64,000 bases of DNA from Carallia brachiata. Taxonomy: Eukaryota; Streptophyta; Magnoliopsida; Malpighiales; Rhizophoraceae. Location: NCBI GenBank assembly GCA_021464245.1, contig JADCRB010000012.1:1903999-1967998 (forward strand), written 5' to 3'. The translations under genes and the position numbers were made by a program. The notes under the pieces were generated by a model. The model was not told the origin of the DNA. It ran no database searches and saw only the letters and a program-made list of their open reading frames with translations. How positions within the stretch are numbered: position 1 is the stretch's first letter; the number at the start of each line of letters is the position of its first letter. Shown piece after piece: positions 11,880 to 49,429 of the stretch.

Positions 11880-11883
11880 ACTT

Positions 11884-13451: not shown

Positions 13452-13456
13452 ATTAT
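13452..13456. repeat. Target site duplication, right copy (ATTAT)
   Basis: Matches 5225-5229 exactly. Confidence 0.9.
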
Positions 13457-22739: not shown

Positions 22740-22919
22740 CTGCAATCAAAATGGGAAAAGGCCACTGTGATCAGGACCAGGTCAGCCTCCATCTCTTTTT
22801 CTTGTAGCTAAAATTAAAAAAAAAAAAACGAATTATAAACTATAGTGTAAAGCAACAAAGGCGAAAGTTAGAAATTGAAAATTAACAGATTAACGACCAA
22901 TCACCAAGCCATTGTACTC

Positions 22920-29372: not shown

Positions 29373-29689
29373 CCCACAGGCGCTTGAAGTTGGTTCATCC
29401 CATTCAGTAGGCTAGAGATTAACACACCTTCTTGAATATAGATTTCACAGTTCTCTGTGCTGATCCAACTCGACATCCATAACTAGAGACCTTAAGAGCA
29501 TGAATCATGTTCAAGCAATACAAGTTCCAGGTATTCCTTGGGAAAACATCATGCCTTGATCTCACGGCCTCACCTCAACCTTGTCAGCTAGCTAGCTTTC
29601 CAGGTATTCCATATCTTAATAAGCTTACTGTGGACAGTGAGATTCAATTAAATGAGGAAGAACAGGGGAAGTAAGAAATAGAGTTACAA

Positions 29690-30240
29690 ACTTCTTGGAC
29701 TAAAAGAGCCGTTGAGTTTAAGAATCTCTCCTTTCCGCTTGCTTTTGGGTTCCAAATACACAAGTGGATCTATTTGATAAATACTTCATATTGTGAAGCC
29801 TAGTTTTCCATCAACCTACTCAGTTAGAAACTTACCCAGCCCAAATTTCAAAGACCCATTTATAACACAACCCAGTTCATTTTAACCTAACATCAAAATC
29901 CTAAAACAATAAAAGGATTTGACTAGATATTGACAGCCTAAATAAAATGAATCGGGTTAATAATTGCTGACCAAATATCAATATCTTTATAATTTCATGA
30001 TGTTATTTTATCATTCTAAGGCTTCTGGAGCTGCTCTGGCTTTTAGGATACAAATTACTAAATGAGAGAAGGCTGAGATTTTCCTTACCATCACCATGGG
30101 CCTACTTGATCTTGACGTCAACTTATAAACTTTGTGTTTGATCGATCATAAATATTTTAATTGTCAAACCTGTTTCTTGAACAGCAGCACCCGTTCCTCG
30201 AAGCATCTACTTTGCAGTATAACCTGGAAGAGAAACTATA
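29690..30240 (-). repeat. Repeated noncoding block (second copy of 4366-4860)
   Basis: Extended similarity to 4366-4860, with shared stretches such as CAAATACACAAGTGG and ACACAACCCAGTTC. Diverged relatives lie at 15940-16380 and 60770-61110. It occupies the same place in each unit, between the leader blocks and the TYID exon. Confidence 0.7.
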
Positions 30241-30499
30241 AGAGGAATGATGGTATTTTTTTTCCCAGTAAAAAAAGAAACAAAACTAAAAAAATTTTAC
30301 TCAAAAAATAAAATCTAATATATGAACCATTGCCAAATTATTTTTCCCAGGACCATCATTCGCTGAACTATCAAGATTGATGAAAACTTGATTCCTCCTT
30401 GAAAATCAACAGTAGAAAAAGTTACTGAAATTGAAGAGGAAATGGACAAAAATTAACTGGAGAAACAAGAAAAAAAAATTACATTATACGAACCTTCGT

Positions 30500-31395
30500 G
30501 AAAAATCAAGATTAATCTGTTCTCTTTTCATCTCGTCTATCAAATAACTGAAGAAATTCATCTGTTCTTGATTCTCTTGACGCCGTAAAATGGACCATCA
30601 TTCGTAGAACTGTCAAGATTTATGAATCTTGATCTTGATTGATGCTTGTAAATCAATAGTGGAAAAAGTTAGCCGAAATCAAAGAGGAAATTGACAAAAA
30701 TTAACTGGAGAAACCAAAAAAAAAAAAAAACATAATACGAACCGTCATAAAAAATAACAACTGAAGAAATTCATCAGTTCTTGATTCTCTTAACGCCGTG
30801 AAAGGGACCATCATTCGCTGAACTGTCAATATTGATGAAACTTGGTTGCTCCTTGTAAATCAACAGTAGAAAAAGTTAACCAGTCGAAGAGGAAATTGAC
30901 AAAAATTAACTGGAGAAACCACCAAAAAAAAAAAAAAAACGCTACGGTAACCGTCTCCAAAAATCAATATCATTGCTGTCCTTTCCATCCGCAAAGAACT
31001 GAAGAGCACGGAATAGAAATTCTCTCTTTCGCTGCCTCCGCCGAATCCGTATTCCGCACGGCCTTCTCGCTTCCACCTATTTGAGGAGGCGAGACGTCCT
31101 TGCCGGTCTTTCTGGTATTTGAGAATGAATTTGACCGTTATTTTTGAAACGAAGAACAAAGAAACTGAATAGGTAATGAAGAGCGCAGGATCTTGGGTGA
31201 TCCATCAGGCTCTGTGGATTGCAAAAACAATGCTAGAAAGGAACAATGAAGATAATGGAAAAAGAGAGCATCTTGAAGAAAGAAACTGACAAGGGACGAG
31301 GTTAGACAGAGAGAGATAGGGGAAGTTAAGAGGGAAAAAGGCAAAGTTGCTGATTTGATTGGGGTCTTGAGAGAGAAAGACACGGATAATTTATA
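30500..31395 (-). promoter_or_regulatory. Hybrid 5' end of an array unit
   Basis: The TATA-like TATAAATT at 31388-31395 and the first part of the leader match the units at 26.2 and 46.4 kb. From about 31168 downward the sequence instead matches the 49.1-49.4 kb unit (segment KDRQG.LAS.. with GGAEYG there and RAEYGFGGG here). The junction lies in a shared GTTTCTTTGTTCTTCG stretch. This looks like a recombinant of two array units. Confidence 0.6.
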
Positions 31396-32090
31396 CAGAC
31401 GTTGTACAGTTTATTTTACAATAAAAATAATAGACAAATCCACCTCACAAGAGGATTCCCTTTAAAAGGGTTAATTGGTTTGATTTTTTTGACCGTTATA
31501 ACAGTCTATCTAAAACCCAAAAAAAGAAAAAAGACATAGTTAAATTGGCAAATCCGGATCATAACAGATTTATAATACCTCTATAGTTTTTTCCTTTTTT
31601 TTTTTTTTTGTGCGTGCAAAAGAAACAGCCAAGGCTAGTGATCAAAGGCTATTAAAAATCCAATCTTCTTAAATCTTAAAATGGGTAAAACTAAACTATT
31701 GGAGGGTCACAAGAATCAAACCATAAAGCACAAAAATTAGTCGGTAGGTTTAGGCCTTTCTCACGAAACAAGAAATCAGCCTAAGGCAATAAAACTCTAA
31801 AAAAGATCTTTTTAAAAAAAAAAAATATGGGGGTGAAAGTCCAGTGGATCTCTCTTCCTAGTTGTCGACAAGGCATGTCATAATATTGACCGAAATTTCC
31901 TAAAGAAAGCAAGCTTCTAAGATGAAAGGAAATAAACCAAAAAAAGAGAACATCTAAAATGAAACCTAGAGCAGATTGAAGATATACATATATATAGTTC
32001 CAATGTAACCTCTCAGCTGGAACCACAATTTTATGAAAGGCAGCGAGAAGAGAAGCAGTTGAAGGCCAGAACAGCAACATGTTGAATTCA

Positions 32091-32095
32091 AGGAC
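32091..32095. repeat. Target site duplication, left copy (AGGAC)
   Basis: AGGAC precedes the TG end of the 5' LTR and recurs at 42210-42214. An uninterrupted related site exists near 46.82 kb (TTCAAGGACATTTCA). Confidence 0.93.
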
Positions 32096-32138
32096 TGTAA
32101 ACTAATAATTAAAAAAAAAAATATATATATATATAAAT

Positions 32139-32212
32139 GGTTGGCAGCCGCCAACCTTGAAGGTTGGCAGCTGCCAACCTAATTAATGCCACCAACCATT
32201 TGGTTGGTGGCA
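32139..32212 (+). promoter_or_regulatory. Three consecutive palindromes upstream of the LTR TATA box
   Basis: GGTTGGCAGCCGCCAACC (32139-32156), the perfect palindrome GGTTGGCAGCTGCCAACC (32162-32179), and 12-base arms TGCCACCAACCA / TGGTTGGTGGCA (32187-32198, 32201-32212) with a two-base loop. They are preserved in the 3' LTR at 41581-41654. They end 18 bases before TATAAAT. Confidence 0.9.
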
Positions 32213-32230
32213 GGCAGGCATGGGGGAGCC

Positions 32231-32237
32231 TATAAAT
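32231..32237 (+). promoter_or_regulatory. LTR TATA box
   Basis: TATAAAT in a GC-rich setting (AGCCTATAAATGGCC), present in both LTRs (3' copy at 41676-41682). Confidence 0.8.
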
Positions 32238-32759
32238 GGCCTCCCCAATTAGAAGGAAGGAGAAGAGAGAAAAAGAAAAAAAAGAAAAAGAGCAGCGAAG
32301 AGCAGCGCAGCGCAAGAAAAAAAAAAAAAAAAGAGAAAAGAAAAAAAAAAAAGAGAGATAGTAAAAAAAAAAAATCGAAAATTACAAATCCGGCTGGATT
32401 AAGCCTCATACGGCCCTCAGCAAAATCCAGGCAACTCATCCGAGAACAAGTCCATTCGACCCTCGGTGAAATTAAGTCAGATCAGCTCAGATCGAGTCTC
32501 TACGGTTCCTAAACGTAGTCAAAACATCCAAATCAGACAAGTTTCAGTCTATCCAGTTCAAGAAAAAGCGGTGGAAATTATTTCTGTCAGATCAACTCGT
32601 GCAGCCCTTGACGGAGTCAAAAAAGGAACACTAATCGGAGGATCTACGGAGATCGACCCCACGTAAATTTTCTTTTACTTTACAATTTTTATTTGTAATT
32701 TATTTTTGTATTTTCGAGTTTAATTGTTTTAGGCTCGAAATTTACGCTTTACAAATTTT

Positions 32760-32777
32760 TGGCACGCTCGGTGGGAC
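32760..32777 (+). promoter_or_regulatory. Probable primer binding site
   Basis: TGGCACGCTCGGTGGGAC lies six bases after the 5' LTR. It starts with TGG as expected for pairing to a tRNA CCA end. The tRNA species is not assigned. Confidence 0.65.
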
Positions 32778-32804
32778 ATCTTCACCTCCCATCTCTTGTT
32801 CCTA

Positions 32805-33000
32805 AAAAAAAAAAAAAAGAGGTAAAAGGGGAGCCGAGAGAAAAAAAAAAAAGTAAAAAAAAAAAAGTAAAAAGTAAAAAAAAAAAAGTAAAAAAAAAAA
32901 AGTAAAAAGTAAAAAGTAAAAAAAAAAGTAAAAAGTAAAAAGTAAAAAAGTAAAAAGTAAAAAAAAAGTAAAAAAAAAAGTAAAAAAAAAAAAAAAAATT
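32805..33000 (+). repeat. (GTAAAAA)n low-complexity spacer
   Basis: About 190 bases of A runs broken by GT every 5-12 bases, between the primer site and gag. Noncoding. Confidence 0.9.
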
Positions 33001-33022
33001 TTACAGGTGTTCAGCACATCAA

Positions 33023-34319
33023 ATGGCACCGAAAAGGAGTACAACTGCTGCCACAAAAAAGAAGGCAACGGCTCCATTGCCTGCATCAACTACCCTACCT
33101 GGGTACGCAGGTCCAGAAACCCGGGGACGGACACAATTTCTTGCCGTCCAAACCCGACAAAATGTCGAAATGGAGAGTCCACAGCTTGCACAACAGGATC
33201 TCTCCCCTGACTCTCTTGCCGCATGGAGGAGTCGATCACCCACCCCGATCGAAATCGGGGGCAACACGACGAACCTGCTCAACAAAATCCGACTCACACA
33301 GAAGAATCAGAAGAGTTCTCTCCCCCAGTCTTTCCCGGAGCCTCATCTGTTGCCGTCATGATGACCAACACAACCAGCACAGAGGAAAGAATTTCAGAAT
33401 TGGAGAACAAAATTTTGCAGCTGATCAGAGTCGTGGAGGAAAAAGATCAACAGATCGCAGCTCTCAAAGGAAAAGCCCCGATCCAAGTTGATCCCGAAAT
33501 CCGCGAGGAGCAACCATATCCACCCGGTTTCACTCCAGAAGCCACACCAGCCGACGTCTTCCCTGCAGAAAAGCGACCAGGTAGTTCTACACAGCTGCCA
33601 CCCTCAAATTCTAGCTTCGCTATCTGTTCAACAATTGCAGGAAATGATAGCCAATACGATCCGACTGCAACAAGCTACATCCTTCCAAGGATCACAGATG
33701 TACGTCAAACCGTACACCAGACGGATCGAAAGTCTCAACATGCCCTTGGGCTACCAACCGCCCAAATTTCAACAATTCGACGGACGAGGCGATCCCAAAC
33801 AGCACATCGCCCACTTCGTTGAAACCTGCAACAACGCAGGGACTTACGGAGATCTCTTGGTGAAGCAGTTTGTTCGTTCACTCAGGGAGACCGCTTTCAC
33901 CTGGTTCATAAATCTTGAACCAGAATCGATCGACAGTTGGGAACAGCTACAACGAGAGTTCCTCAACAGATTTTTCAGCACTCGAAGGACGGTAAGTATG
34001 ATGGAGCTTACCAGCACCAAACAAAGAAAGGAGAGCCCGTTGTCGAATACATCAACAGATGGCGTGCCCTCAGCTTGGACTGCAAAGATCGCCTGACGGA
34101 GACTTCTGCCGTGAGATGTGCATCCAGGGAATGCATTGGGAGCTGTTATACATCCTGCAGGGTGTCAAACCCCGAACTTTCGAAGAACTGGCGACCCGCG
34201 CACATGATATGGAGATAAGCATCCAGACTTCCGGAGGCACGGTTCCCATCCAGTTGGACCAGCAAGGGGGCAGAAGGGAGATTAAGAAACCCAACAGCTC
34301 CGGAAAAGGAAAGAAGTGA
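33023..34319 (+). pseudogene. gag: Gag of the Tat-type element, frameshifted
   Basis: ATG at 33023 opens a basic N-terminus (MAPKRSTTAATKKK). The protein continues through at least three frame changes (in the 33.22-33.36, 33.6-33.8 and 34.0-34.1 kb intervals). A coiled-coil-like stretch (ISELENKILQL) precedes the capsid domain. That domain holds HIAHFVETCNNAGT, LLVKQFVRSL, DSWEQLQREFLNRF and, in another frame, EMCIQGMHWELLYILQG, all typical of Tat-lineage Gag. It ends in a lysine-rich tail at 34319. As it stands no continuous Gag can be made. Confidence 0.85.
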
Positions 34320-35140
34320 TGACTGTTGAAGCCGCACCAGTAAAAGTGGGCGCCAAAGCTAAGGTAAATCCTCCGACCCAAATAACTCAGCCAAAACAAC
34401 AGGAAAGGCGGAAGGTGACATTGCGAGAGTTGGAGCAGAAGCAGTATCCATTCCCCGACTCAGACGTCCCCGACATCCTTGACCAACTCTGGAGGCGAAG
34501 CTGATCGAACTCCCAGAGTGCAAGCGGCCGAATGAAAAGGATCGAGTCAGCGATCCGAGATTCTGCAAATATCACCGGATAGTAAGTCATCCAACCGAGA
34601 AGTGTTTCGTCCTGAAGGAGCTAATCATGAAGCTCAAAAGCCAGAATAAAATCATTCTGGACCAGGAAGGCATAACCTCTGCAAACCAGACCACCATCAC
34701 TTCAAAACCATCAGAAGAGTGACACACGTAAGGAGGAGCCGCTCGACAACAAAAAGTCGACAACGGAGAAGGTATATGAAGCTCTCCAAACCCTTCTCGC
34801 TAACCCTCAGCTGTTTATAGCTTTGCAATCAACAGAAGTGTGGCAAAATCAAGTCAGCAATACTCTCCAGACCTCAGCTGAATCACAGCCATCAAATGAG
34901 TCTAACTCAGCGGAGCAACAGGCGGCCAAAATCACGTCGGATGTTACTCTGCTATCTCATTTTCAGATGAGGATCTCCTGCTGGGGTCCAAACCCCACAA
35001 TCGGCCGCTGTATGTATCAGGCTATGTGAGAGAACAGAAGGTCCGACGTATTCTGATCGACGATGGTCAGCAGTCAATATTATCCCAAAATCCACCATAA
35101 AGGAGCTCGGCATCGGTTGATGAATTATCAGACAGCCGCT
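34320..35140 (+). pseudogene. Gag-protease linker of the Tat-type element
   Basis: Short open segments in changing frames. Fragments such as KRPNEKDRVSDPRFCKYHR (34.52-34.58 kb) and VREQKVRRILIDDG near 35.03-35.07 kb lead into the protease. The ILIDDG segment is the expected catalytic DxG site, but the sequence right after it leaves the frame. Confidence 0.6.
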
Positions 35141-35664
35141 TGATGATTCATGGCTTTAATCAAGGAGGACAGAAAGCAATTGGGATGATTCGCTTGGAGC
35201 TAACTATCGGTAATCTCACTTCTAGCACTCTATTTCACGTGATTGATGCACGTACCACATATAAGATGTTGCTAGGACGACCGTGGATTCATGGAAATGG
35301 AGTTGTGCTCTCAAGCCTGCATCAGTGCTTCAAGTACTACAATGGTGGCGTTCAAAAGGTCAATGCTGACTTAAAGCCGTTCGATGATGCTGAATCACAT
35401 TTGGCGGATGCAGTCTTCTACACTGACACAGACAATCCGGAGATCATTCCATCAAAAGCTACTTGGACTGGGGGCATCCACAAAAAGGGAAAAGCTGTCG
35501 AAGAACCTGCCAATGCCCAACCCCAGGCTCCAACAAATGAAAAGCTGCCACAGCCTGCTGAACTTTCCGAAGGATGTTGCATCTTCAAGCTCCACTCCAG
35601 TCCTACGCTATGTGCCGAAGTCACGACGCTCAGAAGGTCAACCCCCTTTCTCTTATTGTATTGA
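35140..35664 (+). pseudogene. Aspartic protease region of the Tat-type element
   Basis: An open segment with MIHGFNQGGQKAIGMIRL, STLFHVIDARTTYK and LLGRPWIH. This is the conserved second half of the Tat protease followed by a linker. The catalytic aspartate lies upstream in another frame, so the enzyme is split. Confidence 0.8.
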
Positions 35665-36158
35665 TCTTAAACAGGAGCATAGCCAACCCAAAACAAAGGA
35701 GCTGCACAACCTGAAGGAGACTTACACTCTGCCGATACCAAAGATTGAGCCGGTTTTGTCTTCAAAACCATTAAAAGGCTTCGTCAAACCACACACGGGG
35801 GCAGTCGAAGGCGGCTCACTTCCAGAAAGAAGAACACATGAAGGATTTGATCCTAATGCATACAAGCTTTTGGCAAAGGCGGGCTATGACTTTCAAACCC
35901 GAGCACAATGGGTACGCTGCCGTCCACACATGGCGCCGCTTCTCAAACATCACAGTCCCGACCTGGCTTAGGCTATCAGGAGAAGTCACCTGTGCGGATC
36001 ACGCTAAAGAGCCGAAGCCGAGCAGCTGATGCACGTGCCATCACCACCACCACCAAACAAGACAGGCTTATCCAGTCAAACAAAGAAGGTGAAGTCAGAG
36101 GTTCTGCATTTCATGTCACAATTAGCGAGGAGGCTGATCCGACTCATCAGATGGTGAA

Positions 36159-37690
36159 GTGAAGGAGGCTCCCCCGGAACTTGAAGATGGTGGCCAAGCA
36201 ACTGTTGATGAACTCAAGGAGGTCAATCTTGGCTCTCCGGAAGATCCTCGACCTACATTTGTAAGTGCTTTACTTACTGCAGAAGAAGAGCAAGAATATG
36301 TTCAGGTATTAAGTCAATACAGGGACGTGTTCGCATGGAGTTACAAAGAAATGCCTGGACTTGACCCAAAAATTGCGGTGCATCGTCTAGCAGTAAAGAA
36401 GGGTGTCCGTTCTGTCAAGCAGCCACAACGACGGTTCCGCCCGGAACTCATTCCACAAATCGAGGAGGAGGTGAACAAGCTGATCAATGCCGGCTTCATC
36501 CGAGAGGTCACCTACCCAACGTGGATTGCCAACATTGTCCCGTAAGAAAGAAGAATGGACAGTTGAGGGTATGTGTTGATTTTCGAGATCTTAACAAGGC
36601 CTGCCCGAAAGATGACTTTCCGTTGCCCATAACGGAGATCACAGTCGATGCAACAACGGGTCACGAAGCATTGTCTTTCATGGATGGTTCTTCAGGCTAT
36701 AACCAAATCAGAATGGCACCAGAAGACGAGGAGTTGACAGCATTCCGCACCCCAAAAGGTATATACTGCTACAAAGTTATGCCGTTTGGATTGAAAAATG
36801 CTGGCGCCACTTATCAACGTGCTATGCAAAAAATTTTTGATGACATGCTGCACAAGATTGTAGAATGTTATGTTGATGACTTAGTTGTAAAGACTAAGAA
36901 GCGCAAAGACCACCTCGAGGATCTCAAGACAGTGTTCGAAAGACTTCGGAGGCATCAGCTCAAAATGAACCCTCTCAAGTGCGCATTCGGTGTCACATCA
37001 GGAAAGTTTCTTGGGTTCGTGGTGCGCCATCGTGGAATCGAAGTTGATCAGTCAAAGGTTGAGGCAATTCAAAAGATGCCTGAACCTAAAAACCTGCACG
37101 AGCTGCGAAGTCTACAAGGAAAGCTGGCCTACATTCGCCGTTTCATCTCCAATTTAGCTGGGAGATGTCAACCTTTCCATCGGTTGATGAAGAAGGATGT
37201 CAACTTCGAGTGGGACGAAGCTTGCAGCAAAGCCTTTGAGAGCATAAAGAAGTACCTTTCCAATCCACCGGTCCTAGGCTCCAATTCAAGGAAAGTCGTT
37301 GATTCTCTACATTGCAGCAGGAAAGATCTTTGGGAGCCTTGCTTGCACAGGAAAATGAGCAGGGAAAGGAAGTTGCCTGTACTACTTGAGCAGAACACTA
37401 AACGGTCCGGAGCTGAGTTATTCGCCCATTGAAAAGACATGTCTAGCACTGTTCTTTGCCATTGACAAGCTGAGGCACTACATGCAGCTCACACGGTACG
37501 TCTCATTGCCAGAGCTGATCCTGTCAAATATATCTTATCCAGACCAATCTTGTCAGGACGACTTGCCAAGTGGGCAGTAATCCTACAAAGCTACGACATT
37601 GTCTACGTGCCTCAAAAAGCAGTCAAAGGACAAGCTCTAGCAGACTTCCTTGCAGATCACCCTGTTCCGTCAGATTGGGAGTTCACAGAT
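36159..37690 (+). pseudogene. pol: Reverse transcriptase and first RNase H of the Tat-type element
   Basis: Two frames joined near 36540. The first gives FAWSYKEMPGLDP and the RT N-terminus (FRPELIPQIEEEVNKLI). The second gives VCVDFRDLNKACPKDDFPLP, SGYNQIRM, VMPFGLKNAGATYQR and the catalytic YVDDLVVK. RNase H follows in further frames: RTLNGPELSYSPIEK near 37.4 kb and GRLAKWAVILQSYDI then QALADFLADHP near 37.55-37.66 kb. RT residues are intact, but frame breaks near 36.54, 37.3 and 37.5 kb prevent a full product. Confidence 0.9.
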
Positions 37691-37709
37691 GATCTTCCAG
37701 ATGAAGAGG

Positions 37710-38130
37710 TCTTTTACATTGAGACACTGCCACCATGGACGATGTTCTTTGATGGTGCAGCAAGGCGTGATGGTGCTGGTGCCGGCATAGTGTTTGTCAC
37801 TCCTCAACGACAAATACTACCATATGCTATCATTCTCGTGAGTTATGTTCAAATAATGTTGCTGAATACCAGGCTTTGATCATTGGTCTTCAAATGGCTG
37901 TCGATATGAAGATTCCAACTATAGAAGTCCATGGAGATTCCCAGCTCGTCATCAACCAACTTACAGGATTGTATGACGTGAAGAAAGAGGACCTTGCGCC
38001 TTACCATCAACGTGCTCGACAGCTAATGGATGAATTTGAAAGCATCACCTTGGAGCATGTGCCTCGACGAGAAAACACTCAGGCAGACGCGTTGGCTAAC
38101 CTGGCTACTTCTCTTGCAAAGTCAGAAATC
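37710..38130 (+). pseudogene. Second (archaeal-type) RNase H of the Tat-type element
   Basis: WTMFFDGAARRDGAGAGIVF supplies the first catalytic aspartate. After a break near 37.85 kb come NVAEYQALIIGLQMA (glutamate) and VHGDSQLVINQL (aspartate). The HVPRRENTQADALANLA box closes the domain. The extra RNase H is a lineage marker for Tat elements. Confidence 0.88.
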
Positions 38131-38299
38131 CAGGCTACAGTTGTTGCTGTATGTCAGAAATGGATAGTGCCACAAAGGATGATGAAGAAACTACAGCAGC
38201 CAACGCTGTATCTGTACGTCTCGCGGAGGACGAGATTGGCGCCAACCAATCATTGACTATCTACAGCACGGGAAGCTGCCGAAGATCGTCGTCATAAGA

Positions 38300-39478
38300 C
38301 AGAAATTCAACGACGAGCTCCCCGCTTCATATATCTCAAGGATGCTCTGTATCGAAGGTCTTTTGATGGAGTTCTACTTCGCTGCCTAGCCAATGAAGAG
38401 GCAAAACAGGCTCTCACTGAAGCACATTCTGGTGTTTGTGGCGGACATCAATCAGGGCCTAAGTTGCACTTCCAACTCAGAAGGATGGGATACTACTGGC
38501 CAACCATGGTACGTGATTCAATTGAGTTTGCTAAAACCTGTCAAGCTTGTCAATTTCATGCGAATTACATACATCAACCACCGGAGCCACTGCATCCAAC
38601 TGTCTCATCCTGGCCCTTTGAAGCTTGGGGTCTCGACTTAGTGGGGCCCTTGCCAAAGTCATCCCTGGGTCACCTGTACATCCTCGCAGCAACCGACTAC
38701 TTCTCAAAATGGGCTGAAGCCATTCCACTTAGAGAGGTAAAGAAGGAGCATGTTGCCAATTTCATCCGGACTCAGCTGATCTATCGCTATGGAGTCCCTC
38801 GATTCATCATCACTGATAATGGTAAGCAGTTCTACAACACTTAATCGACAAGCTCTGCGAGAAGTTCAAGTTCAAGCAGTACAAGTCATCCATGTACAAT
38901 GCCCCAGCAAATGGCTTGGCCGAAGCATTCAACAAGACCTTATGCAACCTGTTGCGGAAGGTAGTCTCTAAATCCAAAAGAGATTGGCATGACAGAATTC
39001 CGGAGGCATTATGGGCGTATCGTACAACTTACCGGACTCCAACACAGGCGACGCCATACTCACTTGTCTACGGTGTCGAAGCAATACTGCCGTTGGAAAC
39101 ACAGATTCCATCCCTGCGCATGGCTGTTCTGGAAGGACTCACACAGGAGGAGAATGCTCGCCTACGTCTGGATGAGTTAGAAGCCTCGATGAAAGGAGGC
39201 TCGAAGCACAACAGCAACTTGAGTGCTACCAAGCCCGGCTCACCAACACGTTCAACCGCAGGGTCCGCCCTCGATCTTTTCAAGTTGGAGACCTTGTTCT
39301 TGCAGTGCGACGGCCCATCAACATGAAGCATCGGCCTGGTGACAAGCTTACTTCCAAATGGGACGGGCCATACTTAGTGCAGGAGGCCTACACTCACAAC
39401 GCTTACATGCTGTCAGACCAAGAAGGCGTCCGAATCGGCCCAATCAATGGTAAATTTCTGAAACAGTATTATGTGTAA
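38300..39478 (+). pseudogene. Integrase of the Tat-type element, frameshifted
   Basis: The zinc-binding part EAHSGVCGGHQSG with CQACQFH is split over two frames. The core has GLDLVGPLP (D), FIITDNGKQF (D), then after a break near 38.85 kb NGLAEAFNKTLCNLL (E). The C-terminal part reads KHRPGDKLTSKWDGPYLV, and the frame ends at TAA near 39478. The DDE residues can all be seen but not in one frame. Confidence 0.88.
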
Positions 39479-39482
39479 ATAT

Positions 39483-39508
39483 GTTTAAAAAAAAAATCAA
39501 AAAAAAAA

Positions 39509-39565
<57 letters not shown>

Positions 39566-39583
39566 AAAAAAAAAAAAAAAAAA
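39483..39583 (+). repeat. Poly(A)-rich tract after pol
   Basis: About 100 bases, almost all A with a few T and C, beginning right after the pol stop. Confidence 0.95.
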
Positions 39584-39604
39584 TGCGAAGTCCCGATCTG
39601 AAAG

Positions 39605-39800
39605 ACCAAGCGAAAGTCCAAACCCAAACACTTGAGCCCAATTCAGAGTCAAAACCCAAACACTCAACCCAAATCCAAAAAATTCAAATTCAAAACCCAA
39701 ACACTCGACCCAAGTCCAAAAATCCAAGTCTAGAAGCCCAAACACTCGACCCAAATCCAATCCAAAGCCCAAAACCCAAAAATTCCAAGTCCCAAACATA
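39605..39800 (+). repeat. Degenerate tandem repeats CCCAAACACT(C/T)GACCCAA
   Basis: At least four copies (near 39622, 39654, 39697 and 39737), with AAATCCAAA spacers. G-poor on the plus strand. They lie between the poly(A) tract and the TATA box of the WOX-like gene. Confidence 0.75.
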
Positions 39801-39872
39801 GTCCAGAACCCAAGTTCAAAATCCAATCCAACTCCTGGCCCGCATGAGTATAAACTGTGAACGGCCCAAAAA

Positions 39873-39879
39873 TATAAAA
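39873..39879 (+). promoter_or_regulatory. TATA box in front of the WOX-like frame
   Basis: AATATAAAAGCAACG stands about 93 bases before the ATG at 39966. That is the usual spacing for a TATA box plus a short 5' leader. It suggests the gene has its own promoter, independent of the LTR. Inferred. Confidence 0.45.
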
Positions 39880-39943
39880 GCAACGGAGGGTTTGAGTCTG
39901 AACTCAGCATCAGTCTCAACCGATCTTCACCACACCAAGACCT

Positions 39944-40582
39944 TTGCTCCTCTGCCGCAAGAAAGATGGAACCAGTTGCAGAACCTCAAGACAAGGGAGA
40001 AGAAAGTCACCTCGCACAAGGTGGCAACCGACCATGGCACAACTGCAAATTTTGGAGGAAGTCTTCTACAACGATGGAGGTATTGTCCCTAACTCTACAC
40101 AGATTCTCCAACTTGTCTCACGACTTCGCCCGCTAGGGGCAGTCGAAGGAAAAAATGTATATTTTTGGTTCCAGAATCGGAGACATAGGGAAACAGTGGC
40201 GCTGAGAGATGGTATTTCCAAAGCACAGCCTGTTGTTCCTATAGTAGATCTCACCAGTACAGCTTCACCCTCAAATGAAGCCGGCCCAAGTTCTACCACT
40301 GCAATGGTCTCTCCACGGTACGTTCATCAAAGCCGTAGCCTATGGGAGCATACATACTGGTCCTGGTGGTTTCACGGAGTCAGCCAAGGGTTCATCCCTC
40401 CTAGATACTTAAGTCTAGGAGGAATTTTTCTAGCACACAGGAGTCATTCCGGCGAAATTTTGCCTCTCTTTCCAGAATATTCCGGCAGCATCAACCAGCC
40501 GGAAAGCGACGTCGACGCCAACATCATCGGCCCACCAGACGAGGTCGAGCTTGACTTGGAGTTGCACCTCGGGCCCCGCTAG
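39944..40582 (+). CDS. WUSCHEL/WOX-like homeodomain protein carried by the retrotransposon
   Basis: The frame is open from 39902 to the TAG at 40580-40582. Numbered from 39944 it is 212 residues. Homeodomain about 25-88: TRWQPT, QLQILEEVFYN, a long loop-turn, RLRPLGAVEGKNV and the recognition helix WFQN (75-78). The EGKNV..WFQN block and the RLR..G spacing are specific to WOX homeodomains. Residues 171-178 (EILPLFPE) resemble the WUS box, with I for the usual T. The tail ELDLELHLG has L203, L205, L207, L209, an EAR-type repressor motif. WUS-clade proteins use exactly this order to control stem-cell and meristem fate in the nucleus. The first in-frame ATG (40034) is inside the homeodomain. A better start, ATG at 39966 (MEPVAEPQDKGEE), is one frame off, so an indel or splice is implied. 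No intron interrupts the homeodomain. It lies between pol and the 3' LTR in sense orientation. Confidence 0.85.
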   Translation: MLLCRKKDGTSCRTSRQGRRKSPRTRWQPTMAQLQILEEVFYNDGGIVPNSTQILQLVSRLRPLGAVEGKNVYFWFQNRRHRETVALRDGISKAQPVVPIVDLTSTASPSNEAGPSSTTAMVSPRYVHQSRSLWEHTYWSWWFHGVSQGFIPPRYLSLGGIFLAHRSHSGEILPLFPEYSGSINQPESDVDANIIGPPDEVELDLELHLGPR

Positions 40583-40599
40583 GACGGCCGACAAGATAA

Positions 40600-40700
40600 G
40601 GTGCAACGACTTCTGCAACGACTTCTGCAGCACGCGGCAACGACTTCCCAGCACACGGCAACGACTTCTGCCACACACGGTAACGACTTTCGTGACACGC
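40600..40700 (+). repeat. AACGACTT(C/T) tandem block
   Basis: Five to six spaced copies of CAACGACTTC with CACACGG-type spacers, directly after the WOX-like stop codon. Confidence 0.75.
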
Positions 40701-40816
40701 GTCAGCCGCTGCCTCTTTTGTCTCTTATGCAGGAAAGGGACGTGGATGGCCCTACCGATTCTGCATACCTTTTTTGACTTTTCAAAAAAAAAAAAAAAAA
40801 ACTCTTTATTATTTGT

Positions 40817-40825
40817 ATATATATC
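40817..40825 (+). promoter_or_regulatory. TATA-like box before a second small frame
   Basis: TATATATAT, about 60 bases ahead of an ATG in favourable context (AAAAGAAAATGGCT). Confidence 0.3.
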
Positions 40826-40878
40826 CTGCATGCCCGAGTTGTAATATTCACCCCTCAGCTCTTCTTTCTCAAAAGAAA

Positions 40879-41181
40879 ATGGCTAGTCTCTGCACTTGTC
40901 TCAGGAAGTTCTTCGATCAAGAAGTTGGAGGCGCACGAGCTAAGAAAAGAAGGAGTAGTCTTCTTCGAGGGATCCCTAAAAGCCCTCGAAACTCAGTCTC
41001 CAACGCCATCGGTGTCATGGAGTTCCAACTACTCTCCTTAGTTCACATCTACCACAGAGGGATGAGAAGCTGCAATTATCCTAATCTTTCTTTGGATGCA
41101 GCGACGTACAGGGAAGTTCCAACTACTCTCCTTACGTCGAAGCAGACTTGGAAATCATCACTACAGTCAGTCTCTCTGTGA
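40879..41181 (+). CDS. Small unidentified reading frame next to the WOX-like gene
   Basis: 100 codons from ATG at 40879. It starts MASLCTCLRKFFDQEVGGAR, followed by a basic patch AKKRRSS that could act as a nuclear signal. It matches no family I know. A 19-base direct repeat (GTTCCAACTACTCTCCTTA) occurs at about 41025 and 41117. Another frame is open from 41096 to 41530 and is serine/proline-rich (GPSSWGGSSSLPTGSSS), so the real gene may be longer and frame-broken. It lies inside the Tat-type element, between the WOX-like gene and the polypurine tract. Confidence 0.35.
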   Translation: MASLCTCLRKFFDQEVGGARAKKRRSSLLRGIPKSPRNSVSNAIGVMEFQLLSLVHIYHRGMRSCNYPNLSLDAATYREVPTTLLTSKQTWKSSLQSVSL

Positions 41182-41528
41182 GCCGGTCTTGAAGTTCCAA
41201 GGTCCTGGGCCTTCCTCTTGGGGAGGTTCAAGTTCTTTGCCTACTGGATCATCCTCACCAGAGCTTTGGAACTTCAAAGAACCTTTGCCAGCCTTTGCCA
41301 GCCATGGAAGCTCAAACGCACCTGGAGCCAAGACTTCAATTTCTATATTGGCTGGGCTGCTAACTTCTTCAAGATCATATCGGTTTCCTATTGCAATCCA
41401 ACAACAGCGGAGATGGTCAAAGATAGAAGACTCCAAGATTCAATGTTCATCAGGACTTTCCAAATTTCAAACTGGACTTCAAGACTCGGTTCGAATTATC
41501 TCTGTAAAAATTTTTCTTACCGACCCTT

Positions 41529-41542
41529 GAAGTGGGGGCATT
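41529..41542 (+). promoter_or_regulatory. Polypurine tract of the Tat-type element
   Basis: GAAGTGGGGGCATT directly before the TG of the 3' LTR. Confidence 0.85.
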
Positions 41543-42209
41543 TGTAAACTAATAATAAAAAAAAAAAAAAAAATATAAATGGTTGGCAGCCGCCAACCTT
41601 GAAGGTTGGCAGCTGCCAACCTAATTAATGCCACCAACCATTTGGTTGGTGGCAGGCAGGCAGCTGGGGGAGGCCTATAAATGGCCTCCCCCCAATTAGA
41701 AGGAAGGAGAAGAGAAGAAAAAGAAAAAAAAGAAAGGAAGAGCAGCGAAGAGCAGCGCAGCGCAAAAAAAAAAAAAAAAGAAAAGAAAAAAAAAAAAGAG
41801 AGATAGTAAAAAAAAAAATCGAAATATTACAAATCCGGCTGAGATTAAGCCTCATACGGCCCTCAGCAAAATTCAGGCAACTCATCCGAGAACAAGTCCA
41901 TTCGACCCTCGGTGAAATTAAGTCAGATCAGCTCAGATCGAGTCTCTACGGTTCCTAAACGTAGTCAAAACATCCAAATCAGACATAGTTTCAGTCTATC
42001 CAGTTCAAGAAAAAAAGTGGTGGAATGGAAATTATTTCTGTCCAGATCAACCTCGTGCAGCCCTTGACGGAGTCAAAAAAGGAACACTAATCGGAGGATC
42101 TACGGAGATCGACCCCACGTAAATTTTCTTTTACTTTACAATTTTTATTTGTAATTTATTTTTGTATTTTTGAGTTTAATTATTTTAGACTCGAAATTTA
42201 CGCTTTACA
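41543..42209 (+). repeat. 3' LTR of the Tat-type element
   Basis: 667 bp. Keeps the three palindromes (41581-41654) and the TATA box. It differs from the 5' LTR by about five C-to-T or G-to-A changes and several small insertions. Confidence 0.96.
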
Positions 42210-42214
42210 AGGAC
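42210..42214. repeat. Target site duplication, right copy (AGGAC)
   Basis: Identical to 32091-32095. Confidence 0.93.
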
Positions 42215-45200
42215 ATTTCACGCACAGAGTAATTGGCTTACATCATTGTCTTCAGGTTGGTCCAACTGGTTTTCAAGTCAAAAGTCATCCTTTGCACTCT
42301 GCAGTGCCAACTGCTTCCTATTTGGCTTCACATCCCAATTTCGTAAATTCCCTTCTTTGTTAGGATGGGAATGAGATCTTCACAACTAAAGCATGCCCTC
42401 CGCCCCCACAAGAAAAAGAAGCAGATAACTAATGTTAGAACATAGACAACAAAAGAAAAGGCTTCACAAGCACAATATGCAAAGAAAGCCATACTTGCCT
42501 TCCATAATGTCAACAACTTTACACACCGGCCTTGTATCCAGACCCTAAGCTATATGCTTACGTCAAGGAAAAGGAAACTAAGACTGAGCGGGCAGCAACT
42601 TTGGGAAATCGATTGCTGAGTGATCCGTTGTGATTGTTGCGTTGCAGTTTCTGGAAATCAAAATGCCTCTGGTACATCATGTTTATTATTCTGCATCGCA
42701 GGGCCCAAAGAAACCATACATCTGACATATGATACAATGATGCATTTTTCACTGATCCAGTGTCAACTCCTTCCTGTTTGGCTTCGCCTTCCAGTTTGTA
42801 AACCTCATTCTCTGTTAGGATGAGATTAGAAATATTCACAGCTCAAACTCCCAAAAAAATAAGAATAAAGGACTAACGTCAGTATAGACAACAAGAGAAA
42901 AGGCTTAATATGCAAACAAAGTCAAATTTACCTTGCATAATGTCGAGAAGGTTAAAGCATCAACATTGTAATCCAGACTCTCAGCTGAAAATAGGAAAAG
43001 AAAGGTACAGAGACAACATATATGTATCAGCATTAGCACTAAGAAACTGATGAAGGGTTAGAGTAAATGATATATGAGTTATAGTTATGCTAAGGAAAAC
43101 CAAGAATATAAAGGCAGCATCTTTAGGAAATTGCTTGTTCAGTGATCCATCCTGTTCTCAAAATGAATCCGAGCCAGAGTATATTGGGATTTCCCTTTTA
43201 CCTAGGTGCTGGAGTTATTATCTGTCAAGAAACATTAGTCACGCAATGCACCAGCAGAATATGACAAAGATAAGTTGGAGAAAAGAAAGTTAACGCTGAA
43301 GCAGAATATCATGTAATTGCAAAAGCCAAAGATTACGTGACAGGTTTCAAGTGCTTTTGGGAACCATAAGCCACTAAAAAAAAAAGCAAAATGACGTCAA
43401 CAGATAAGAAAAGTTTCAAAGAAATTAACTTTACTCCTTTTTGCTACTTCTAGAAAAAACTTCATCTTCTCCTTATCTGTATCAACCTTGAGTCAATTTT
43501 TTACCTACTTCATCTAATGACTGAGGGAGAATATGTTTATGGGCATAGCTGTCAACCGGAGTTAATGTGGTTTGAGGCATTCTCTTCTACATTCTGCAAG
43601 TAGAGAAAAGTTTCGTGAGCAATCACTCAATAAAAGCCCTTGCACAGGAAGGACTTACTGAATTCTCGAGACCTAAGTATTGTGCATATGCCATGGGAAG
43701 ATAAGTTGATAAAGTAAGGGACCTACTGAGACCTGATGTTTCCAAGGTCACCGACACGAAGGATATTGATACCACCACAAAAGCTAGTACCATATGACAA
43801 ATTCAAGGCATTTCCATCAAAGGGCTACAGTTTGGGCGTCAACTAGCAATCATCCTCACAACATATATTCAGATAGTAATTAAATTGTAGTGAATCCATT
43901 CAATAAATCAGTGAGTCAATCTTCTTTAATTACCTGGCAAAGAAGTCCACCTTAGGTCATCAAGCTCCCAAATGTTTGAAGCCAAAGATCCAGTTAGACT
44001 GTCATAGATCTCATATTAGGATGCCTTCAAAACTCTTTTGATTGCCCTATCTACAGCCTAAGCCAGAATAAGATGTAAGCCAAAAAAATAAATCCAACTT
44101 TGTTGCTAAAGAAAAACAAGAACGTAGAGTAACACTTTGGCTGGATCAAACAGGACACTTTCCTCAATTCTGCATGAGCCAGCATCAACTTCTATGGGGT
44201 CTTTTGCCAACACTCATGACTTGGCCGTTTGCTTCATATGAAGGACATCTATGTAAGTCTGTAATGAACAGGAAAAAAAACCGTTAATAGTTTGTAATCA
44301 GGACCACATCATCCCTCAGGCACTTGAGGTTGGTTCATCCCATTGAGCAGAAAAGAGAACAACACACGCCTTGAATATGGATTTCACAGTTCTCTGCGTT
44401 GGTCCAACTGCAACATCCATAACTAGAGACCTTAACAGCATGAATCAACGTTAAAGCAATACAAGTTCCAGGTATTTGTCGGGACAATATCATGCATTAG
44501 TCTCATGGTCTCACCTTAACCTTGTTACCTAGCTTTCCCAGTACTCCACTACTCAATAAGCTCACTGTGGACAACGAGCTCATATTCCTTTCTCAATATC
44601 AGACATTAATGAGACATCAACTTGACCATGCAGCTCATCTCAGGATGCATCGGCTTGTTTGTTTTCTGTGTATGGAGGGCATCAATGCAAATTTGCAATG
44701 AAAAGGGGAAAAAGGCCATTGTAATCAGGAACATGTTTGCCTCCAGCCTCCAGCCTCTAGCCTCTCTCTTGCAACTAGAATCAAAAAATGAATGGTAAAC
44801 CATATTGTAAAAGCAACACAGGGCAAAAGTAGAAAAATTAACAGATTAATGACCAATCACTATCTATCTAAGTTAAATGGTAAAGCTACACATTCCAATC
44901 CAAAATAAGAAAAAACATATCCAACACAAGTATACAAGAGACCCTCCTATGTATACCCAGATGTCAAGAAAGAGAAACCAGCCCCCCCCAATTCCCTTCC
45001 TCTCAATCAGTGATCATTGGTATTAAATATTGGTTCTTTAGAATTATAACGAGGTAGAGGTAGAGAGAGAGAGAGAGAGAAGCTCCCTAGATATTGAAGC
45101 AAAACTGAAATTCCTGCCTTCAAATGACAAAAAATAGCAAAAGAAGAAATAAGTGTGACTAATAAATAACAAGAAAGAGGAAACAGACTCCAAAACCCAA

Positions 45201-45580
45201 TTTCAAGAAAAGATACAAAGGATGCTTTCTAATCTATTTACCCTGCAAGCTTGGAGTCAAACTTCTGTAATTACCCTAAAAGGAAGTTCACTCTCCAAGT
45301 CACCCAGCTCCCATATGTTCTCTGCCAAAGATCGGGTTAGTCCGTCATAAACATCAGGTTAACTTGACAACCCTTTAATTGTTCAATTTGCATTTCAAGC
45401 TAGCATAAGTTGTGAGCGAAAAAAAAAACAAAAAAAGATTTGTTGTTGAAAACAAGTATGTACTGAGACATCTTCCTGAATTCTACATGGGCCATTATTA
45501 ACTTCAACCGGGCCATCCGACAGGAAGCATGAATTGTCCGTTTTCCAGTGGATGAAGGACATCTATGGTAAGTCTGCAAT
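42215..45580 (-). pseudogene. MCM4-like pseudogene copy split by the Tat-type insertion
   Basis: Remnants in order on the minus strand: TYID-type exons at about 45510-45580, 44640-44700 (ICIDALHTQKTNK) and 44190-44260 (TYIDVLHMKQT); 43512-43598 (AHKHILPQ, one frame break); 43130-43215 (IITPAPR and the ALAR-equivalent region); 42760-42830 (an unassigned exon reading ENEVYKLEGEAKQEG) running straight on into the VEKH/EAF exon at 42630-42700 (KHDVPEAF, then ATQQSQ); and another copy of the unassigned exon at 42230-42340. The close join of two blocks at 42.7-42.8 kb, normally about 400 bases apart and in the other order, shows recombination. The last block continues across the retrotransposon into 31.8-32.09 kb. 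Confidence 0.75.
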
Positions 45581-45659
45581 CGATAAGGAAAAGGCCATTG
45601 TGATCGTGACCACGTCAGCCTCCATCTCTTTTTTCCAGCAGCTAAACTTTAAAAAAAAA

Positions 45660-45682
45660 AAAATATATATATATATATATAA
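45660..45682. repeat. (AT)n microsatellite
   Basis: About ten AT units following an A run. Confidence 0.9.
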
Positions 45683-45699
45683 ACTATAGTGTAAAAGCA

Positions 45700-46395
45700 A
45701 CAAAAGGGAAAGAACGTGAAAAATTAACAGATTAACAACAAATCACCAAACCATCGTAGTCTGCATCTTCTCAAACAAAGAGGATGGCAAGGCAAAAATC
45801 AAAAACGTAGAATTCGAAAAATTCACTAGCCGCTCTGTGTCTTCAAAGCCATTATCTTAGTCAACATCTCCTGGCGACATTCCCCGCCAGCCCATGGGTC
45901 TTCCAGATTAGGGATGTCGTTTCCACCAAAAAGAAAAAGAAAACAATAAAAAAGCATTAATAGATGAAAAAAGAAAAAGAAAAGGATAAAGAAGTATCAA
46001 TAGACGAAAAAAGAAAGAAGTTTTGATAAAGAATCAAAGTTCCATAAGAAAGAAAACAAGCAAACAGATTCAGCAACATAAACAGCAGTAAAAACAAGAA
46101 TAGGTAATGAAGAGCACAGAATCTTGGGTGATCTTTGGTGTGGTTTTTGAGCGCAGAATCTTGGTGATCCATCAGGCTCCGTTGATTGCAATAACAATGC
46201 TAGAAAGGAAGAAAGAACATAATAAAAAAGAGAGCATCTCGAAGAAAGAATCTGGCAAGGGAAGCGGTCAGCGAGAGAGAGAGGGGGGGAAGAGGCTTGA
46301 GAGGAACCAGACAGAGGAAGTTAGAGAGAAAAAACAAAGTTGATGATTTGACTAGAGTCTTGAGAGAGAGGCACTGGCATGGGTGATTTGTATAG
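45700..46395 (-). promoter_or_regulatory. 5' end of an array unit
   Basis: Leader matching 25.8-26.2 kb, with the same doubled GATCACC.AAGATTCTG block. The TATA position (46386-46394) reads TATACAAA, a weakened form of the 26.2-kb box. Confidence 0.5.
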
Positions 46396-46849
46396 ACGTT
46401 GTGTATTTGCCTTGCAAGAGGACTCTCTTCAAAAGGGTAATTGGTTTGACAATTGCACCGTTATATTAGTCTATTTAAAACAAGAAAAATATAGACAATC
46501 CGCATCATGATAGGACTATTAGGCGTTACAGATAAAATTCAAAATTTCTTAAATCTTATAACGGGTAAAACTAAACTATTGGACCTCTCGTCCTACTTGT
46601 CGCCAAGACATTTCATAATATTGAACAAAATTCCCTAAAGAAAGCAAGCTTCTAATATGAAAGGAAATTAAAAAACAAAAAGGCATCTAAGATGAAACCC
46701 AAAGCAGATTCAAGACATACGTATATAGTTACAATGTTACCACTCAGCTGGAACTACAATTTTCTGCAAATCAGCCAGAAGAGAAGCAGTTGAAGCCATG
46801 GAATAGTAACATTTTGACTTCAAGGACATTTCATGCACTGAGTAATGGA

Positions 46850-47300
46850 CTTACCTCATTGTCTTCAGGCTGGTCCAACTGGTTTTCAAGTCTTTGCAGT
46901 GTCAGACTTTGCAGTGTCAACTCCTTGTTTGGCTTCGCCTCCCAATTATGTAAACTCCATTCTCAGTTAGGATGAGATTAGAGATCTTCACAACTCAAAC
47001 ACCCTCCCCAAAAAATAAGAGTAAAGGACTAATGTGAGTACACGGACAACAAGAGAAAAGGCTTCATTGCCCTTTTTTGTGGACTAATGGAGAACAGATC
47101 CTCCATTTGTTGTTCTAAGTATCCTCCATTTAAAATTGAGGTTCAAAGAAATTAACTTTACTCCTTTTTGGAAAGCTTCCTCTTCTCCAGTCAATTTTTT
47201 GCCCGCTTCATCCGATAACTGAGGGCAAATACGTTTATGCGCATAGCTCATACTCAGAATTAATGTGGTCTGAGGCATTCTCTTCTATGTTCTGCAAGTA
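46850..47300 (-). pseudogene. MCM4-like fragment (LSDEA exon and unassigned exon)
   Basis: Bases 47150-47290 contain SYAHKRICPQLSDEAGKKLT, which matches the MCM4 segment reading SYARKHIHPKLSDEAAEELT. The start of the exon is in another frame. Bases 46850-46965 carry the unassigned exon, with LENQLDQPEDNE before a GT donor. The short spacing shows that the intervening MCM4 exons are deleted in this unit. Confidence 0.75.
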
Positions 47301-49412
47301 GAGAAAAGTTTCATGAGCAATCACTCAATAAAAGCCTTGGAACAGGAAGGACTTACTAAAATTTTCAAGACCTCTGTATTGTCAAAGTGTAATGCCTCTG
47401 TCACGAACCTAGAGATCACATCATAGATGTCAAAATCCCCCTAGGATCTAAGCCATGGTCTCAAGACAGAAGGATCAAAATTCTCCTACGGTTTCACCTG
47501 TTTCAGGATTTTTGCCAACATATGTTGTCTAGCCAACAGCTAAGGCACCCCATACATTGTTCATATGCCACCGCAACATAAGCTTGCCTAACGGACCAGC
47601 TAAGACTTGATGTTACCGACGTCACCAACTTGAAGGATATTGATATCACTACGAAAGCTAGCACCATACGACATATTCAAGGCATTGCCATCAAAGAGCT
47701 ACACTTTGGGCGTCAACTAAGAATCATCCTCACAGCATAACATATTTAGATAGCAATTAAATTGTAGTGAATCCATTAAATGAATCATTGAGTCAAACTT
47801 CTTTAATTACTTGGCAAAAAAGTCCACCTCAGGTCATCCAGCTCTCAAATGTTCGAAGCCAAAGATCTGGTTAGTCTGTCATATATCTCATATCAGGCTG
47901 CCTTGGAAACTCCTTTGATTGCCCCATCTGCAGTTTTCAGCCAGAATAAAATGTAAGGCAAAAAAAATCCTTTTTTTTTTTTTTTTGCGAAAGAAAAGCA
48001 AGAACATATAGTAACACCTTGGCTGGATCAAACTGGACACGTTCCTCAATTATGCATGAGCCAGTACCAACTTACATACTTTGATTGATCATAAATATGT
48101 CAAATCTGTTTCTTGAAGAGCAGCATCCATTTCTCCATGCGTGTACTCTGCAGAATAACGTGGAAGAGAAAGTATAAGAAGAACTTTGGAGTTTTTTTCA
48201 CAGTAAAAAAGAAACATAACTAAAAAAATTTACTTAAAAAGAAAATCTAATATATGAACCATCGCCAAATTCTGTTCTCTTTTCATCTCGTCTATCAAAC
48301 AACTGAAGAAATTCATCTGTTCTTAATTCTCTTGACGCCGCCATGAAATGGACCATCATTGGCTAAGCTGTCAGGATTGATGAATCTTGATTGATCCTTG
48401 AAAATCAAAAGTAGAAAAAGTTAACCGAAATGGAAGAGGAAATTGAAAAAAAATTAACTGGAGAAACAAAAAAAAAAAAAAAACAAAAAGAAAAGAAAAG
48501 AATTACATTATACAAACCATCGCGAAAAATCAAGATTAATCTGTTCTCTTTTCATCTCGTCTATCGAACAACTGAAGAAATTCATCTGTTCTTGACTCTC
48601 TTGACACCGTGAAAGGGACCATCATTCGCTGAACTATCAATATTGATGAAACTTGATTGCTCCTTGACAATCAACAGCAGAAAAAGTTAACCGAAATCGA
48701 AGAGGAAATTGACAAAAATAAACTGGAGAAACAAAAAAAAAAAATTACATTATAGGAACCGTCGTGAAAAATCAATTCCAATTGCGTTGTATTGACTGTT
48801 ATATCTAAAAAAAAAAAAAGACATAATTAATTCAAATTTCCTTATGAGGAAGCAACATCAGTGCTTCCTTCTCCATGCGTCTACTCTGCAAGATCAGGAA
48901 GAGAAAGTACAACAGAAACTATGGGGTTTTCTCACAGTAAAACAAAAATATAACTAAAAAAATTAACATAAAAAGAAAATCTAATATACGAACCATTGCG
49001 AAAATCTGTTCTCTTTTCATCTCCTCGACCAAATAACGGAAGGAATTCGTCTGTTCTTTGATTCTCCTCGACGCCATTAGATAGACTGTTATCCGCTGAA
49101 CTGTCAAGATTGATGAATCTTGATTGATCCTTGATAATCAATGGTAAGAAAAGTTAACCGAAATTGAAGAGAAAATCCTTTGCATCCGCAAAGAATTGAA
49201 AAGCACGGAATAGAAGTTCTCTCTCTCGCCGCCACCACCGGATCCGTATTCCGCACCGCCTTCTTGCTTCCACCTACTTGCAGGGGAGGCGAGACCTCCT
49301 TGCCGGTCTTTCTGCCAATTAAGAGTCAACGTGACCGTTATTTTTGAAGCGAAGAACAAAGAAACACAATACTTTGTAGAGAAGGGAGGAGAAAAGAGAG
49401 CCGTTGGACGGT
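47300..49412 (-). repeat. Tandem leader blocks of array units
   Basis: Blocks at 48250-48470, 48530-48730 and 48970-49160 are near-repeats of each other and of 4980-5150, 30340-30660 and 62030-62160. They share TGTTCTCTTTTCATCTC and a minus-strand frame with DEF..LF.RRDEKRTD. The three side-by-side copies indicate local tandem duplication of a leader exon. Function unknown. Confidence 0.6.
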
Positions 49413-49420
49413 TATTTATA
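49413..49420 (-). promoter_or_regulatory. TATA box of an array unit
   Basis: The minus strand reads CTATAAATA, followed by CCAACGGCTCTC. Best-looking of the array core promoters. The following leader (49140-49330) encodes an open GGAEYGSGGGGE stretch of unknown meaning. Confidence 0.55.
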
Positions 49421-49429
49421 GGCAAGCCT

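Follow-up and report, generated by a model that had tools for sequence, protein, structure and literature searches.

Introduction

For many of the extra genes carried by plant retrotransposons, neither the origin nor the function is known. The closest described case is in Vigna. According to a 2023 meeting report on K. Naito's genomes (PMC10714607), Vigna marina and V. riukiuensis carry many amplified copies of WOX-family genes (over 1000 in V. riukiuensis), most of which lie between identical LTRs and show target-site duplications. Orchid Ty3/Gypsy elements are described as carrying an AlkB-type m6A demethylase, and a B3 DNA-binding domain and a LONELY GUY family domain are further entries in the screen of 121 angiosperms in that work (PMC9289625). 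In the Tat lineage, Retand elements with TRP28 are reported to have extra frames between pol and the 3' LTR, whose products are predicted to bind DNA (PMC11963269).

The Vigna report was the only direct precedent found in a literature search that covered few subscription papers and no preprints, and an earlier description may exist. The available text of PMC7264820 and PMC6317226 does not mention a homeodomain, and that of PMC10149957 does not mention WOX. As far as their available text goes, the other papers examined that combine WOX and transposon terms describe elements near WOX genes or host WOX genes, and none of them describes WOX inside elements. Here we describe a WUSCHEL-type homeobox gene in a family of Tat elements of Carallia brachiata.

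The WOX frame and its host element

The window is the whole stretch of DNA that was analysed (64,000 nucleotides). A first-pass annotation, made from the sequence letters, had described the frame at 39944-40582 as a WUSCHEL/WOX-type homeobox gene inside a Tat retrotransposon. The frame is in sense orientation and occupies the slot between the integrase and the 3' LTR of a 10.1-kb Ty3/Gypsy element with the following features:

32091-32095, no strand, target-site duplication AGGAC on the 5' side (direct repeat)
32096-32754, plus strand, 5' LTR starting with TG (94.55% identity to the 3' LTR, K2P 0.040)
32760-32772, plus strand, candidate primer-binding site TGGCACGCTCGGT
33488-34096, plus strand, gag fragment (Retrotrans_gag 1.1e-7)
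36521-37432, plus strand, reverse transcriptase fragment (RVT_1 5.1e-35)
37876-38256, plus strand, RNase H-like domain between reverse transcriptase and integrase (RVT_3, PF13456, 4.4e-18)
38464-39326, plus strand, integrase region in two separate frames (first piece rve 1.7e-8, H2C2 1.4e-5)
39849-39854 and 39873-39879, plus strand, two TATA-like stretches upstream of the WOX frame
39944-40582, plus strand, WOX frame as listed, with a TTG start (212 aa)
40013-40192, plus strand, homeodomain, frame residues 24-83 (Pfam and structure matches)
40454-40474, plus strand, WUS-box-like EILPLFP (sequence motif)
40550-40570, plus strand, EAR-like LDLELHL (motif, below the Pfam cut-off)
41530-41539, plus strand, purine-rich tract directly before the 3' LTR (sequence)
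41543-42209, plus strand, 3' LTR ending with CA (LTR pair comparison)
42210-42214, no strand, target-site duplication AGGAC on the 3' side (direct repeat)

The element is a complete insertion (32096-42209), having two LTRs with TG..CA ends and a short target duplication. The second frame of the integrase region gave no Pfam match. Tat elements, in angiosperms Ogre and Retand, are recognised by an archaeal-type RNase H (aRH) between RH and integrase (PMC6317226). Because an extra RNase H sits between the reverse transcriptase and the integrase, the element is placed in Tat by this criterion. The PF13456 domain is read here as the aRH, which suggests an element of Tat, Ogre or Retand type, with an ordinary RH not separately located.

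All the motifs named in the first-pass annotation (TRW.PT, RLR..G..EGKNV..WFQN, ILPLFP and LDLELHL) are present within this single open frame. Its homeodomain matched the Pfam model with an E-value of 2.7e-9 (37.1 bits against a cut-off of 22.9). Two solved structures were matched, the best being WUSCHEL (6ry3, 6.8e-16) and the other STENOFOLIA (6wig, 1.4e-13). The element gene also contains EGKNV..WFQN, by which WOX-type homeodomains are recognised. Together with the aRH-type domain, these matches bear out the description of a homeobox gene of the WUS clade within a Tat element. Chance similarity as the source of the homeodomain was set aside on account of the E-values and the 589 genomic places described below.

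The WUS-box has the consensus TLxLFPxx, and WUS itself carries an acidic stretch ahead of the WUS-box and a C-terminal EAR motif. By eye, the box reads EILPLFP in the window copy, with I in place of T, and ETLPLFP in the copies of subfamily B (see below), and no acidic stretch was seen before it in the element gene. LDLELHL is present near the end, and it scored 15.3 bits with the Pfam EAR model, under the cut-off of 28.9. A single-sequence AlphaFold prediction of the WOX protein was uninformative (mean pLDDT 34).

The first-pass annotation took the 212-residue frame for a complete regulator with a leader and a TATA box. The open frame with its homeodomain is there, but it starts with TTG, and the likely start is the ATG equivalent to position 39966, which full-frame copies use for a product of about 203-207 aa. 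In the window, the frame from ATG 39966 is out of register with the homeodomain and runs to a stop. Therefore, the window copy is broken near the N-terminus and is not a complete regulator; intact copies are present elsewhere in the genome. The two TATA-like stretches do lie upstream, as a candidate promoter only. The context of the one at 39873-39879 recurs in 58 of 71 copies, some of which had little upstream sequence fetched.

Several other features were observed in the window. A long A-rich tract (39487-39583) lies between the integrase end and the WOX segment, and is also present, with other lengths, in the five copies compared. The WOX element is flanked by diverged repeated blocks (22251-32095 and 42209-49365, 72-92% identity), which look as if a tandemly duplicated host region had received the element; no frame longer than 95 aa was found in 42300-49500. 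A second Gypsy element lies at 5229-13453 on the minus strand. It is a recent insertion, with LTRs (5229-6799 and 11883-13453) that are 99.87% identical and long open frames for gag (379 aa) and pol (1158 aa).

Copies across the genome

A degenerate recognition-helix pattern was found at 284 + 305 = 589 places in the 337.5-Mb genome, a count that leaves copies with an altered motif outside, and the reversed control pattern was found at 0 places. A positional sample of 20 copies was taken by order among the matches listed (the first 100 places). All 20 were the element gene, 1 of A type and 19 of B type. The integrase was upstream of the WOX gene in 15 of them; 2 were short elements, and the 3 others showed a second WOX piece, the family's protease region and mostly unreadable sequence, respectively. 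The frame is thus multi-copy and no isolated capture. The integrase was also upstream in 26 of 30 copies, and in 45 of the 51 copies with flanks, which include those 30 (5 of the remainder are short and 1 is unclassified). Between the tail end of the integrase region and the WOX stop, the median distance was 1106 bases (46 copies). A host gene lying merely beside an element was set aside, since the same slot was seen in most copies examined. At one locus (C1:424243-425978), the WOX motif occurs at two places separated by 862 bases, which represent two consecutive WOX genes or fragments.

Only 4 of the 20 positional copies have one frame from the ATG through the homeodomain and the WUS-box to the EAR-like end, and at least one of these landmarks is missing from the single frame in the other 16. 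A first protein search scored the best 150 of 2779 candidates, a set biased to intact frames in which not all are full length, and 8 of these 150 matches had a stop within the matched part. An in-frame upstream ATG is missing in 4 of the 5 short copies among the 51 with flanks, as it is in the window copy. Several copies have one-base deletions in common, some close to the start and others elsewhere. Because of this ATG loss and these shared one-base deletions, some lineages spread with a disrupted WOX frame.

Outside this genome, the WOX frame found no match at 1e-3 among 219 candidates from a collection holding 5.8 billion predicted proteins. Given how common WOX proteins are in plants, this collection seems to be WOX-poor. 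A search of viral contigs also found nothing.

Short elements without gag-pol

The family has two architectures, a long one with gag-pol pieces and a short one without them, of which one whole example of about 5 kb was found. This example (L089) is a 5.0-kb LTR element with the target-site duplication GTGAC and LTRs of 98.2% identity (K2P 0.017), and it contains a 203-aa WOX frame starting from its own ATG. WOX is the only frame of at least 150 aa between its LTRs, and no gag-pol was detectable. In Blast, it matched the window element only at the LTR end with the primer site and in the stretch from WOX to the LTR. The C58 locus resembles L089, the LTR starts being 99.2% identical over 521 bases; its 3' LTR is cut by the end of the fetched stretch, and its WOX frame is without an in-frame ATG. 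Tandem 43-44-bp units with TATAAAA lie upstream of the WOX gene in both of these short elements, the two examined.

Other repeats were also observed. L089 has 47-bp tandem units inside its LTRs, and the short elements have 8-bp and 40-72-bp arrays and an array of TATA units before the gene (upstream stretch of L002). In the short-type copy L004, a piece 79% identical to window 34392-34718 adjoins the WOX module; this copy is either an intermediate deletion form or a member of another family.

Probable donor of the element's WOX gene

Nine WUS-clade homeodomain loci of the host genome scored above the element copies. We take them to be two WUS (L058 and L059, so named from the homeodomain), two WOX1, two WOX4, WOX5, WOX3 and WOX2. 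Among these nine genes, the WUS pair alone shares with the element a first homeodomain loop that is longer by one residue. TLPLFP was found only in the WUS pair among the seven host genes whose WUS-box was seen. The extra loop residue and TLPLFP make WUS the likely, but not proven, donor. In alignment scores, subfamily A reached 175 and 173 with the WUS pair against at most 151 with the others, and subfamily B reached 186 and 185 against 165. By percent identity, WOX3 was level with the WUS pair against the element homeodomain. In the homeodomain tree, which had no outgroup, the element branch was 1.17 long and its placement had 15% support.

The element gene and host WUS share the longer first loop and an M[E/D]P start, and the ETLPLFP box of host WUS is also that of the B copies. 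In contrast, about half of the homeodomain residues differ. The helix end is NRRSR or NRRHR in the element but NHKAR in all nine host genes, with WFQN kept. Since the helix end is unlike that of all nine, the target range of the element protein may differ.

The element gene also differs from host WUS in length (see above) and in having no introns. It is continuous from the homeodomain to the WUS-box, whereas 7 of the 9 host WUS-clade genes have stops between these two parts in the homeodomain frame, as would be expected of introns; the remaining two showed no WUS-box within the fetched stretch. The first-pass annotation was right that the gene is intronless. From the lack of introns only, we infer the capture of a spliced WUS-type transcript via RNA.

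Probable selection on the homeodomain

The 91 copies fall into subfamilies A (36 copies) and B (55 copies), and one copy (L034) combines A and B traits. Pairwise dN/dS (NG86) was calculated on 49 of 50 copies, L031 being dropped because its homeodomain start was out of frame. For the homeodomain, A compared with B gave 0.36 and the B copies among themselves gave 0.24; for the rest of the protein, the values were 0.60 and 0.58, respectively. Within A, it was 0.91 at a dS of 0.013, a divergence too small to tell. Between A and B, dS was 0.41 in the homeodomain versus 0.14 in the rest.

To separate life in the replicating lineage from decay after insertion, shared variants were compared with private ones, which occur in one copy only. 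Shared variants had a minor count of at least 4 in the 91 copies, at least 2 in the 20 positional copies and at least 3 in the 55 B copies. The 71 non-positional copies came from protein-based searches, which favour conserved proteins. The positional sample is free of this bias save at the search motif, and the homeodomain test omits 36 bases around it.

In the homeodomain, shared and private dN/dS were 0.38 versus 1.44 in the 91 copies (Fisher p 0.0018), 0.15 versus 1.27 in the 20 positional copies (p 8e-5) and 0.19 versus 1.25 in the 55 B copies (p 4e-4). When the homeodomain frame was shifted by one or two bases, no such contrast was observed (p 0.28 to 1). Low shared values, high private values and flat shifted frames indicate that, during the spread of the family, selection at the protein level likely acted on the homeodomain.

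Outside the homeodomain, the values were 0.97 versus 1.19 in the 91 copies (p 0.064), 0.87 versus 1.23 in the positional sample (p 0.040) and 0.91 versus 0.86 in the B copies (p 0.66). The middle part of the protein alone gave 0.91 versus 1.58 (p 0.032), and the WUS-box plus EAR gave 0.67 versus 0.83 with 9 shared variants only (p 0.44). These weak contrasts mean little, because shifted frames outside the homeodomain reach p 0.074 and 0.062. With shared dN/dS of 0.87-0.97 outside the homeodomain, selection gives no support for a function of the WUS-box or the EAR-like end. The comparison of dN/dS across copies, suggested in the first-pass annotation, therefore found constraint in the homeodomain but a value of about 0.9 in the rest; its own opposing case, a dead capture seen in a single copy with dN/dS near 1, does not hold for the homeodomain.

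Among the length changes that copies share, deletions of 3 or 6 bases close to the C-terminus are the commonest. Four sites have a one-base deletion carried by 3 to 7 copies each, and 8 of 50 single-copy deletions are multiples of three. With the higher dS between A and B in the homeodomain and the mixed traits of L034, the subfamilies look mosaic, perhaps through template switching. Independent captures for A and B were set aside, because the flanks and the helix change are common to both.

Possible roles of the WOX protein

Because selection likely kept the DNA-binding part working, the element probably uses its WOX protein to direct the activity of genes in those cells in which it spreads. 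With modest confidence, we lean towards the reading that the intronless WUSCHEL-type gene of this Tat family encodes a WUS-like DNA-binding accessory regulator, a predicted corepressor recruiter that would shift transcription in the element's favour. A Tat element would have captured a spliced WUS-type transcript, and the gene would be expressed either from the TATA-bearing segment ahead of it or through the element's own transcript. The protein would bind DNA through its WUS-like homeodomain, its WUS-box and EAR-like end are predicted to recruit a corepressor, and the resulting shift of host or element transcription would benefit the element.

The protein might instead bind the element's own LTR or TATA-bearing segment and tune element transcription, like a regulatory accessory protein of retroviruses. 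The tandem TATAAAA units before the gene in the two short elements agree with this, and the window LTR has 14 TAAT cores versus 7.9 expected (P 0.033) and 2 TAATTA versus 0.4 expected (P 0.047), P values that are uncorrected for five motifs on six stretches. However, WUS-type motifs were not enriched in two short-type LTRs or in two upstream segments, and we regard such self-regulation as rather unlikely. Neutral cargo, captured once and copied only because it sits inside a successful element, would account for the value near 0.9 outside the homeodomain, for the disrupted or incomplete frame in 16 of 20 positional copies and for the one-base deletions common to some copies. It would not account for the low dN/dS of shared homeodomain variants (0.15-0.38, p 0.0018 to 8e-5) beside flat shifted frames, or for the WOX gene being kept where gag-pol was lost. 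We regard neutral cargo as improbable.

Retention in elements without gag-pol would also be expected of a cis signal, so the region could be kept as nucleic acid, for packaging or as a plus-strand priming tract, rather than for its protein. The homeodomain contrast follows the reading frame and not the shifted frames, and the commonest shared length changes are 3 and 6 bases, although shared one-base deletions occur; this explanation is very improbable. A counter-defence role deserves little more credence. Host WUS is said to restrict viruses in the shoot apex, and a WUS mimic with an altered recognition helix could compete with it and open germline-forming cells. The WUS-like homeodomain, the changed helix end and the repressor-type motifs fit this idea, but both its function and its targets are putative. 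Returning to the accessory regulator that we prefer, a tentative and rather doubtful extension is that the family has made a master stem-cell regulator its own accessory gene. This WUS mimic would drive cells into the stem-cell state that yields germ cells, or unlock that state, and stripped-down elements with hardly anything but the gene would spread beside the complete ones.

Comparison with known systems

In the present family, the donor class is recognisable and is a stem-cell kind of gene, the copies number in the hundreds, and selection on the homeodomain can be separated from decay after insertion. It can therefore be tested directly whether a transcription factor of the cells that give rise to the germline brings an advantage to the plant element carrying it. 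In the automatic annotation of such genomes, hundreds of transposon genes may be taken for members of the WOX family.

The orchid elements are also Gypsy elements with a captured conserved cellular domain, but there the captured protein is an enzyme, and the string homeo is absent from the available text (PMC9289625). The Retand elements with TRP28 likewise belong to the Tat lineage and carry their extra frames in the same place. However, those frames are antisense and encode a domain of unknown role, and homeo, WUS and WOX are absent from the available text (PMC11963269). The family described here may be the same as that of the Vigna WOX burst. The available text of the Vigna account has neither a sequence nor a lineage, and states no donor, selection test or status of gag-pol (PMC10714607). 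WOX inside LTR elements is thus not wholly new, whereas the lineage, the evidence of selection and the short form go beyond that available text.
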